Positions 37,297 through 58,285 of a stretch of DNA of 64,000 nucleotides are shown here, one piece after another. Location: the NCBI RefSeq assembly GCF_949774925.1, contig NZ_OX458932.1, positions 806,001 to 870,000 of the forward strand, in the 5' to 3' direction. Numbering within the stretch: position 1 is the stretch's first letter; every line of letters begins with the position of its first letter. This DNA is from Candidatus Methylacidiphilum fumarolicum. GTDB lineage: Bacteria > Verrucomicrobiota > Verrucomicrobiia > Methylacidiphilales > Methylacidiphilaceae. The notes under the pieces were generated by a model. That model was given only the letters and a program-made list of their open reading frames with translations, was not told the origin of the DNA and searched no databases. A program made the translations under genes and the position numbers.

Positions 37297-38189
37297 GAAA
37301 AAGACAAGCCGCTCGCTTCTAAATTTCACATGACAAAAGAGAGGCAAGCTGCCATCCTTTTGGCTTGTGAAAGGACCTGCGGAAAGGCAATCGGAAAGTC
37401 GCCAAGAATGTTACTAACTCACTCGATTGTATGCGGGGAATGTAGGTATCAAACTTTTGAAGAGAAGAGGAGATAGCATATCTCTCTCATGAGTCTTGAA
37501 CATGGTAAAAGGATGGTTATTGCTTTTTCAGCTAGCTTAAAGATTCAGGGCATAATTTGACTTGTTTTAAAGGAAAAGGAGGCAGTCATTCCCTACGCAG
37601 CGCAACTACAAGTTCCGAAGCGATTATATGGAGAAGCAGTCGAGATAGAGGCTTTACTTTCTGAAGTTTTCTCAAAAGACCACGGGAAATAGGAGAGAGG
37701 GTTTTGATGGTTGCTCGCTAATCTCTCTAAATATCATAAGGAGGAAGGGAGAAGAAACGGCACAATTTTCAGGCGATTGGTAAGAATCCAGGCAAGGCAG
37801 TTAAAGCAAGACGCATCCGCAAGCACCACTTGGGAAGATAAAAAGCGATTGCTTTGCGTGCGCAAGGGGCTGGCGGAAATAGAGAGGCAAATAAATGCAA
37901 GCCTAAGCCCTCTTCTTACATTACGAGGATCTTCAGTATTTGTTTCTGAGGATTTACATATATAAAGTAACGTTTCAAGTAAAGGGCATTCCAGGCGCAT
38001 TATACAAATACGTAGCGGCATGATTAAAAAGCGAATCGATTTTCTGGCGCCTGGCTGGAGGTTCCTATCGAGAGAAGGTCAATCCAGCTTAGATCTCTTA
38101 GCTTTGTTCGCGGTGTAAGTAGGTTCATCCGAAGCAGTGCATGTGGAACAAGTTTGTGTGCTGGGCATATAAGCTATGTGGATAGGGAT
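37297..38189 (+). pseudogene. tnpB: TnpB pseudogene (IS1341-like element)
   Basis: Recognisable parts in shifting frames: TWEDKKRLLCVRKGLAEIER, then SSVFVSEDLHI (the second RuvC motif with its Glu), then KGIPGALYKYVAA followed in another frame by RIDFLAPGWRF, and near the end the zinc-ribbon segment CAGHISYVDRDSAYN. The region before 37580 shows no clear homology. Numerous frameshifts show it is dead. It leads directly into the element's 3' end, which is also present at 57 kb. Confidence 0.7.
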
Positions 38190-38524
38190 AGTGCATACAA
38201 CCAAATAAAAAGGATCGGAGATCCGGAGATTTCCCTGTGGACGCCGCAGAACCGGCTGCATGCGATTCGGTTGAAGAGGTTTACTTGTAATAGCGGGCTA
38301 CCGTCCGATGGGAATCTCGATGAGGGGAGGCTGGCCTTGGATGGACGACTCTAGGCACTGGGAAGTGTCCTCTTTGATTGCCTAAATGATATGCTAATTC
38401 TAGCCCGCTCTCCCGTAGAACGAAACGGTCTTGGCAATCCCTGGTCATCCCTGTCCAATACCATGGTGAATTGAACGAACTTGGGTCAGGCGTAAGCGTT
38501 TCCGAGTACGTTTTAAGGAACAGT
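38190..38524 (+). repeat. Right end of a TnpB element, copy 1 (possible omega RNA region)
   Basis: Begins in the last codons of the tnpB pseudogene (RIGDPEISL and LKRF equivalents) and runs through GCCTTGGATGG-type sequence to AGGAACAGT at 38524. The same region occurs inverted at 56955-57420. In TnpB elements the guide-bearing RNA overlaps the tnpB 3' end and this segment. RNA activity is inferred only. Confidence 0.65.
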
Positions 38525-54054: not shown

Positions 54055-55164
54055 TTAGCTTTTCTTTGATAGCCGGATCCCAAAAAGAGGAGCAATTCTA
54101 AAAAGAGAGATGGTTGCAAAAACACATAACGGGGTAAAAATTGCAATAGCTGGGGGAATTCTCATGCCTTGGCCTAAAATCTGGAAAAAGTGGAAGATCA
54201 AATAAAAGGCGATAAGAATAAAAAGGGCATTAAAAACTCCGGCAGCCGGATGTCTGCTACTGAGTCTTCCTCCTTCTGCTAACCCAATAAGAAGAAGGAC
54301 AAGGACAGATAGAGGTTCGGCAATGAGAGTGTAGAATTGGACTTGATAGGGGGCAAGGAGCGTTTTTTGAATATTTCCTGGATTGTCAATCAGTTTCCAT
54401 AATTCTGAGGCATTTAGATCGCGCGGTTTTTTTTCAAGCGCCACCATTTGTCTTGGAGGCGTTGTCCAGGAAATTAGGGAAAGAGATTCAAAATAGGTGC
54501 TTTGGAGAAAATTACTCGAGCTGTCATAGTCGATTCGATTGACATCGTTAAGAATCCAATGGCCATCTTTCCAGATGGCTGTACGAGCAAAGTATTTTTT
54601 CAGATCTTTTCCAGAATCTTCTTGAACAACGACTTCAACATCTTCTCCCTGATTTTTGACAAAATCGAGCTGACGGAAATACCATATTCTTTTTTCTGCC
54701 TTTTCCCTGTAAATGATACCGCGTACAGCATGAACCGATCCTTTGTTTCCTTTGATATCTTCCATAATTTGATCTCTTTTTGCCTGTGAATTCCCACCCG
54801 GACCAAGCTGTAGAGCGATAAGAAAGACCGTCATAATAAAACCTATCATCAAAAAAGGAGCAAAGATTTTTTGCAAGGGAACACCGCAGGCTTGCATGGC
54901 GACAAATTCACCATGTCTGTGAAGCTGCATGAGAAAATAAAGAGAAGCAAAAAGAGAAGCAGGAGGAACAATCATGATCACCACGGCTGGAAGATAAGCT
55001 ACATAATAGTTGAAAATCTGACGGGTCGTGGCTTTGTTTTGGATGAAATCTTCCAATGATCCGAAAAGATCAGCAATGATCACAAGCGAACAAAAGGCAA
55101 GGATCGTAAAGAGTAAGGGATAAAGGAAACCTTTAAAAAGATAGCGGAACAAAATTTTTTTCAT
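54055..55164 (-). CDS. LptF/LptG-family LPS export permease
   Basis: A 369-residue YjgP/YjgQ-family permease with three N-terminal helices (FLYPLLFTILAFCSLVII; VVIMIVPPASLFASLYFLMQ), a periplasmic beta-jellyroll domain (about 130-260) and three C-terminal helices. It forms the LptB2FG exporter of lipopolysaccharide. Whether it is LptF or LptG cannot be decided, and no partner is adjacent. Its ATG is preceded without gap by a GC-rich structured element; the start reads ATGA. Confidence 0.9.
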   Translation of the reverse strand: MKKILFRYLFKGFLYPLLFTILAFCSLVIIADLFGSLEDFIQNKATTRQIFNYYVAYLPAVVIMIVPPASLFASLYFLMQLHRHGEFVAMQACGVPLQKIFAPFLMIGFIMTVFLIALQLGPGGNSQAKRDQIMEDIKGNKGSVHAVRGIIYREKAEKRIWYFRQLDFVKNQGEDVEVVVQEDSGKDLKKYFARTAIWKDGHWILNDVNRIDYDSSSNFLQSTYFESLSLISWTTPPRQMVALEKKPRDLNASELWKLIDNPGNIQKTLLAPYQVQFYTLIAEPLSVLVLLLIGLAEGGRLSSRHPAAGVFNALFILIAFYLIFHFFQILGQGMRIPPAIAIFTPLCVFATISLFRIAPLFGIRLSKKS

Positions 55165-55625
55165 CCAATTTCGCGGGAAACCCCGGCGTTCAGGCCAGGG
55201 AGGGATAGCGCGGCGGCGTAAGCTGCCCCTGTTCCCGCATCACCTTTCTCCAATGCTATCTTGGTCCACAAATATCTATAAAGGAATAGAGAGGCGACTT
55301 CACTCTGCCTTCCATTCCCAGGGCTTATACCCCATCTGGCTTTTGCCGGTGACGGAGCCGAGCTGGCGTTTCCGACTCGCTTCTCTCGGGAAAGTGCGCG
55401 ACCAGCTACCTGCATGTACAGGAGAAGGGAACCTTTGGTGCTTTGCCTTTCGCCTGCATGATCCCCTCCTTCCAGGATCCTAGACAGAGGAAGCATCCCG
55501 GAGTGGGTCTTGTATAACCTATCGCTTACGTAGTTACTTCTTTGCATCGCCACTGCTCCGTAACTTATCCTGGTCAACCAGGCTTGTACGTAACTACATG
55601 CCCCTCCCATTTAGGCAGGGGTAGT
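55165..55625 (-). ncRNA. Candidate solo HEARO (IscB omega RNA) element
   Basis: About 450 GC-rich bases between gmhA and the permease gene, with strong pairing on the minus strand: AACTACCCCT with AGGGGcatGTAGTT near 55590-55625, CCTGG-TTGA-CCAGG, and CGGGGTTTCCCG at the far end. The minus-strand 3' end abuts ATGA, the reported insertion context of HEARO elements. No IscB gene follows, so it would be a solo copy. An open frame of 149 codons crosses it but has no recognisable protein features. The assignment rests on context and partial memory of the motif, not on a model search. Confidence 0.5.
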
Positions 55626-55680
55626 TGACTGTTGAACCACTTGAATTAAGCTGTACAAGCTAACCCTTTTTTACAAGAAT

Positions 55681-56954: not shown

Positions 56955-57420
56955 ACTGTTCCTAAAAACAGACTTGAGGACATGCTTATGCCTTCCCCAA
57001 GTTCGTTCTATTCGCCTTGGTTTTGGACCGGGAGAAGTCGGGATTGCCAAGGCCGTTTCGTTTACCAGTTGACTGAGGTGGTGTTGATAAGCCGGCGATG
57101 GGCAATCCGCCGGCGCTCCAACAAGTCGCGACGAGTTTCACTCCCATTTTGGGTCCGTTTGCTGCGGTCCGCCAGTGCCTGGAGTCATCCGCCCAGGGAC
57201 AGTGCTCCGCATCGGGATTCTAATCGGATAGTTTCCCGATACTGTGGTAAAACCTCTCCAAAAGGATCGCATGCAGCCATTCTTGCGGTGTCTACAGACA
57301 TATCTCCGGATCTCCTATCCTTTCCTTGAGGTTGTATGCGCCAACCCTGTTCGTATAGCTTACATGCCCACAATACCGGCATACAAGCCTATCCCCCCTG
57401 CGGTCCTTCGGATGGATTTT
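56955..57420 (-). repeat. Right end and 3' fragment of a TnpB element, copy 2
   Basis: On the minus strand it starts with the TnpB zinc ribbon CRYCGHVSYTNRVGAYNLKE and RIGDPEICL, a stop, then LLERF, and continues into non-coding sequence ending at AGGAACAGT near 56955. It is homologous to 38.1-38.52 kb but in opposite orientation. It lies just downstream of holB and has no intact gene. Confidence 0.75.
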
Positions 57421-57424
57421 CCTT

Positions 57425-58285
57425 TTAAAAAGTTTTAGGAAGGAATGCGGCTTCAATAGCAAGCGATTCATCTACCGCATGTCTAAAATCTTGGTGGAGC
57501 TGCTCTATGGTTCTTATCGCCTCCACATATCTCCAGAAACTTTTCTTGGGGGACTCTTTCTTTAGTTCTTCTTGGATCTTTTGCCAGTAAGCCTGTTCAA
57601 GAAGGCGCAAGAACCGTTCCCTTTTATCCATGATCTTGATATGGATGACTGTTTGAGTTTCTTCTAGTGGTTGTTCTTCATTTTCCTTTTCTAGTTCTGC
57701 TTTTGTTTTTTGGATAAACTCATTGAGCAATGCCATCTTTTTGAACCCTGCAATTGGTTCTCCATTGTCGATTTGCATCCATTTTTGCACTTCGGCCAAA
57801 AGCTCTTGATCTTCAGTAGAAATTTCAAAAGGAGAACTGTAGACAGAAACTCGAATGCATCGAGAAAGAATAGTTGGAAATATGGACAAAGGTCTTGTCG
57901 AAGTTAAAAGAATGGTGGTATGCGAAGGAGGCTCTTCAAGGGTTTTTAGAAAGGCATTGGCCGCTTCTCCTCCTCCTAAACACATAGATTCAGCCTCTAA
58001 GATGAGGCAAACTTTTCTGGATTCTTTATACGCCTTCAAGTAAAGCTGCTGGCAGACTTCCTTTATTTGCTGAACACTGATGCGCTTTAGTTTCGTTTGT
58101 GGACGGATAAAGTAAAAATCAGGGTGCTTCAATGGATCTCCTTCTAGCAGCTCTCTGGAAAGAGCCATCCCTACGTTTAACAACAATGAAGCATCGGAAC
58201 CGCTGAAGAGATAAGCTGAAGCGATCCTTTGGTTCAGAATCCCTTTTTTGAATAGTTGAATACAACTTTCATAGCTCAAAGACAT
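57425..58285 (-). CDS. holB: DNA polymerase III subunit delta prime
   Basis: The preferred start is the ATG at 58285 (MSLSYESCIQLFKKGILNQR), giving 286 residues; an in-frame ATG at 58375 would lie inside tmk. RIASAYLFSGSDASLLLNVG replaces a normal P-loop, as expected for the non-ATPase delta prime. LILEAESMCLGGGEAANAFL, KTLEEPPSHTTILLTSTRPL and the SRC motif ILSRCIRV follow. It pairs with DnaX in the clamp loader. It overlaps the end of tmk, the classical tmk-holB order. Confidence 0.9.
   Translation of the reverse strand: MSLSYESCIQLFKKGILNQRIASAYLFSGSDASLLLNVGMALSRELLEGDPLKHPDFYFIRPQTKLKRISVQQIKEVCQQLYLKAYKESRKVCLILEAESMCLGGGEAANAFLKTLEEPPSHTTILLTSTRPLSIFPTILSRCIRVSVYSSPFEISTEDQELLAEVQKWMQIDNGEPIAGFKKMALLNEFIQKTKAELEKENEEQPLEETQTVIHIKIMDKRERFLRLLEQAYWQKIQEELKKESPKKSFWRYVEAIRTIEQLHQDFRHAVDESLAIEAAFLPKTF

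Follow-up and report, generated by a model that had tools for sequence, protein, structure and literature searches.

The structured sequence immediately upstream of the lptF-type gene in the window (the whole 64,000-nucleotide stretch of Candidatus Methylacidiphilum fumarolicum DNA analysed here) is most probably a non-autonomous derivative of an IscB transposon, one that kept its omega-RNA and both ends, lost nearly all of iscB, was inserted precisely, spread as a mini-element, would have been moved in trans and is probably inert today. The evidence comes from empty sites in related species, a covariance-model match, eight further copies in the same genome and the state of that genome's only full-length IscB.

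Insertion exactly between the lptF leader and its ATGA start

The element lies exactly between the native lptF leader and the ATGA start. It is absent from the gmhA-lptF spacer in four congeneric genomes (lptF orthologues in congeners: 85-98% identity): the closest empty site reads ...AATTCAAGTGGTTCCATA followed directly by ATGAAAAAAATTTTG, while the window reads ...AATTCAAGTGGTTCAACA, the element and then ATGAAAAAAATTTTG. Relative to the four empty sites there was neither target duplication nor loss. The preliminary description had placed the insertion precisely before the ATGA of an LPS permease gene, and the empty sites prove this; its interval (55161-55640) was right to within about 10 bases, but the element itself runs from 55629 to 55165 on the minus strand (Table 1). 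The name lptF for the permease gene follows its description as an LPS permease and the gene context rather than a family-model match.

Table 1. Features of the mini-element and its target gene (window positions)
Feature	Position	Strand	Description and basis
Whole mini-element	55165..55629	-	465 bp; 5' end GTCAAC, 3' end AAATTGG; copy alignment and empty sites
HEARO / omega-RNA scaffold	55374..55629	-	cmscan RF02033, 66.3 bits, E 6.8e-13; fold conserved over nine copies
Predicted 16-nt guide TTCAAGTGGTTCAACA	55630..55645	-	Native sequence upstream of lptF; position relative to element
Retained iscB 3' end (...WTKIALEKG...) and transposon right end	55165..55280	-	Last 116 nt align with the end of the iscB-remnant copy L009
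Right-end hairpin CCTCCCTGGCCTGAACGCCGGGG	55181..55203	-	Right-end motif also present in gammaproteobacterial IscB elements
ATGA	55161..55164	-	Target-adjacent motif, lptF start codon and stop (TGA) of the 149-aa frame through the element
lptF/lptG-type LPS export permease gene	54055..55164	-	369 aa; ORF; start codon is the insertion point

The proposal that the element is HEARO-like was borne out by the HEARO covariance model (Rfam RF02033), which matched the window at 55629-55374 (minus strand) over model positions 1-211 of 211 with an E-value of 6.8e-13. The assignment carries one qualification: at 66.3 bits the window copy is under the Rfam gathering score of 83 (a curation threshold, not a biological feature) and was not listed by the Rfam scan at that threshold, whereas its paralogues L001 (94.9 bits) and L002 (88.4 bits) are above it. 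Over the RNA, the window copy and L002 are 81% identical. Across the nine copies, 92.9% of pair cells of the fold were kept, versus 35-43% with slid pairings; covariation among the nine was weak (seven pairs with changes in both partners, no more than in shuffled controls).

An open frame of 149 aa (55161-55610) runs through the element, which might point to an unrelated GC-rich structured or coding stretch. Such an origin is extremely improbable given the HEARO match, the nine dispersed copies with common ends and the empty sites in relatives; as an ordinary coding stretch the frame was rejected, since it is lost in some copies. The element is also more than a guide RNA: the iscB gene is absent from the window copy, but its last codons and the transposon right end are still present.

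The guide (its length of 16 nt is presumed from the literature) occurs once in the genome; the next best site has two mismatches and no ATGA, and among sites with up to two mismatches no second target bearing ATGA was found. Since the guide is unique, its expected target, given an active IscB, would be the empty lptF allele, like a retention guide. The mechanism we envisage has the following steps: i) mobilisation in trans would have been the work of a Y1 transposase of the single-strand IS200/IS605 type, putative for these ends; ii) the lptF promoter would transcribe a leader RNA in which 16 nt of native leader, the guide, is joined to the scaffold (a promoter scan of the region gave nothing above chance and no clear match); iii) with an active IscB, this guide would direct cutting of the empty allele (guide plus ATGA), and repair would restore the element, amounting to retention or homing; iv) docking just before the start codon would let the promoter of the host gene drive the guide and leave the protein intact; v) as the only full-length IscB appears nuclease-dead, the window copy today is probably no more than an inert insertion in the leader.

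The nine-copy family and the IscB of the genome

The genome carries nine HEARO copies (L001-L009; the window copy is L005), all of which begin with GTCA and end directly before ATGA, one of the two motifs (ATGA or GTGA) next to which HEARO RNAs are reported to insert. Six of them (L003-L008) are minis of 462-467 bp with one common internal structure, that is, the same iscB deletion; of the other three, L001 arose by a separate deletion, L009 is a decayed iscB copy and L002 has full iscB. Thus the same deleted form at six sites indicates spread as a mini-element. Precise empty sites were found for seven of the nine loci including the window copy, the joined flanks of L001, L002, L003, L006, L007 and L008 running unbroken through sister-species empty sites. 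The eighth, L004 (genome C1:649471-649933), shows a 24-nt change: the 24 nt between two ATGAs in the empty sites of G004 and G001 are gone, and after this loss on the occupied chromosome the element end adjoins a gene start codon. For L009 no match spanning an empty site was found in sister species. One deleted form at several sites, inserted precisely and free of target duplication, is what is expected of non-autonomous (MITE/PATE-like) elements. The genome has 48 Y1 transposase matches, none of them inside the nine elements, and this abundance speaks for our preferred explanation.

Many of the nine copies differ by ~14-20% among themselves, yet the species with the corresponding empty sites differ by only ~4-17% in the flanks. 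Either several diverged sources moved recently, or the elements evolve fast.

IscB has been linked with HEARO RNA (PMC9755519), and the present family itself encodes IscB: a related scaffold accompanies iscB in L002, L009 holds iscB remnants and the window copy the iscB 3' end. We compared iscB deletions in the window's own genome (G000), G001 and G009. All of them (the G000 mini, L001, L031 and L041 in G001, and L034/L047 in G009) keep at least the first 265 nt, which is the whole omega-RNA, and those with an aligned end keep at least the last 84 nt. That every deletion derivative examined preserves the whole omega-RNA suggests that this RNA mattered for spread or retention. The idea of a solo guide RNA is supported, all three computational checks proposed with it (covariance model, iscB elsewhere in the genome, empty sites in relatives) having turned out favourably; it needs the corrections that the copy is not alone, being one of nine relatives (six of them minis), and that it is a deletion derivative.

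An IscB elsewhere in the genome had been suggested as a user of the guide. One full IscB is indeed encoded, in L002 (C1:1050620-1052262; 442 aa, NCBIfam guided_IscB 371.7 bits). Compared with 72 homologues, this protein deviates at 17 of 120 near-invariant positions: i) the HNH histidine (H in 71 of 72 homologues) is Y; ii) the RuvC-III histidine (H in 71 of 72) is Y; iii) the zinc cysteine (C in 72 of 72) is G. The catalytic and zinc-binding roles of these residues are assumed from general knowledge of IscB and Cas9. The L002 IscB is probably nuclease-dead, and active use of guides in this genome today is doubtful; with both nuclease histidines and the zinc cysteine lost from the sole full IscB, the window guide is probably inert.

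The omega-RNA could still be in use by an IscB (that of L002 or one transferred in) to hold the element in place. This would fit the whole omega-RNA in every iscB deletion derivative examined and the conserved fold, but the sole chromosomal IscB is devoid of key catalytic residues and in HEARO score the window copy falls far short of the best ones in the genome; we regard an active solo guide as unlikely.

The window also contains representatives of a second, unrelated GC-rich family of ~457-bp elements (56960-57440 and 38126-38524; loci L187-L206), present at roughly 40 places in the genome with 67-77% identity over long matches. The family had no Rfam match. In one member, L188, coding sequence for the zinc-finger end of TnpB is present (Pfam Cas12f1-like_TNB, E 6.5e-7); thus the family has the look of mini-elements built on a TnpB 3' end and may represent solo TnpB guide RNAs.

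Start codons as insertion points

At six of the nine loci the downstream gene begins at the ATGA: that of an ABC-type permease (L001), a secreted HNH-like protein (L002), a 77-aa secreted protein (L003), lptF (L005, the window copy), a squalene/phytoene-synthase-like protein (L006) and an alcohol dehydrogenase (L008), the names other than lptF being assigned by visual inspection of the sequence. Only its 24-nt loss places L004 at a start codon, and L007 and L009 are not at start codons. For the gene behind L002 (L070), whose start codon is occupied by the full IscB element, the product is a secreted protein of 161 aa in which an HNH-like motif, EIDHLIPLGLGG, was likewise recognised by eye. The control was a sample made up of the window and of loci fetched from this genome and from relatives; in it a simple ORF caller placed gene starts at ~3.0% of all ATGAs, and at 10.9% when only noncoding and start ATGAs were counted. 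Six of nine gives a p of about 6e-8 against the former and 1e-4 against the latter; since gene calling was crude and part of the excess reflects selection against insertion within genes, the 10.9% comparison is the fairer one.

A position before the start codon could also mean that the element has been domesticated, the scaffold in the lptF 5' UTR regulating lptF or, together with a nuclease-dead IscB, acting as an RNA-guided repressor at start codons. The envelope gene whose leader holds the insertion is indeed probably essential, most guides in the genome are native leaders beside a start codon, and the genome's IscB is full length yet has lost both nuclease histidines. However, none of the four congeneric species examined has the insertion at lptF, the genome offers the window guide no other site bearing ATGA, and the IscB deviates at non-catalytic conserved positions too, a pattern more suggestive of decay than of selection for a dead enzyme. 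Domestication is accordingly an improbable account, and we retain that of an inert transposon derivative.

Searching genome contigs with the L002 protein alone gave no match; a search with an alignment of cleaner homologues gave 274 IscB matches. From other genomes 80 IscB loci were fetched, 45 of which have a recognisable right end followed by ATGA. In 34 of these 45, an ORF of 60 aa or more begins at the target ATGA, versus 29.6% of 2181 control ATGAs in the same flanks; among the 29 loci for which the left end was known as well, 14 have what look like true starts, versus 10.5% (p 3e-7). These statistics are only indicative, as two Moorena locus pairs probably each represent a single insertion shared by sister genomes and the patterns for the right end were picked by eye. 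They are indicative of start-codon insertion recurring in related IscB elements of other phyla. The junction reads TGATGA in 23 of 45, and in three of 45 iscB terminates at the TGA contained in ATGA, as it does in L002. A Shine-Dalgarno-like AGGAGG/GGGAGG stands just upstream of ATGA in the right ends of L001/L002 and of Moorena elements; Moorena right ends were located partly by this motif, which there is description and no test.

Two of the start codons are occupied in sister species as well: that of the 77-aa gene (L003) in G001 (L036), and that of the alcohol dehydrogenase gene (L008) in G003 (L042, the same start within 3 nt). The paired elements are only 71.5% (L003-L036) and 52% (L008-L042) identical, versus 84-86% to their closest own-genome copies, while the L003/L036 flanks share 94-96% identity; in the tree, the elements group by species. 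Orthology of the insertions is disfavoured by this grouping and by the low identities. On the simplest reading, each of the two start codons apparently received separate insertions in the sister species; whole-element gene conversion may be an alternative account of both pairs.

A broader interpretation, which we put forward tentatively as a possibility that falls somewhat short of even, is that ATGA-targeting IscB elements are start-codon-docking transposons: the motif would be the host's start codon, the host promoter would transcribe leader-guide plus scaffold, and the right end would supply a ribosome-binding site or an overlapping stop (TGATGA, or TGA within ATGA), such that the host gene stays translated. 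If so, host-promoter expression would select which insertions are retained. A literature search covering mostly titles and abstracts, with the original HEARO and OMEGA papers outside its scope, returned no paper known to report start-codon insertion by IscB elements.

Relation to known systems

Solo omega-RNAs have so far been hard to interpret. Nine copies with empty sites, several separate losses of iscB that spare the guide RNA, and a decaying IscB form a natural series from autonomous element to relic, and the start-codon position suggests how such elements get their guide RNAs transcribed and avoid harm to the host.

The window element resembles the HEARO RNA (RF02033), the omega-RNA of IscB in OMEGA systems, in its full-length model match, its order of guide, scaffold and element end, and the ATGA downstream; unlike HEARO/IscB OMEGA loci, it has no iscB beyond the last codons and scores under the gathering threshold. 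Stand-alone HEARO or trans-acting omega-RNA loci were reportedly described by Weinberg in 2009 and Altae-Tran in 2021. Shared with these are the lack of an adjacent iscB, several copies per genome and insertion before ATGA; what differs is that the present case comes with documentation of derivative structure, of empty sites and of the position at gene starts, and that the genome's IscB looks dead. PATE/MITE-like elements are non-autonomous IS200/IS605 derivatives. Like them, the window family keeps both ends, is devoid of a transposase and exists in several copies with one internal deletion; unlike them, it keeps a complete guide-RNA gene.
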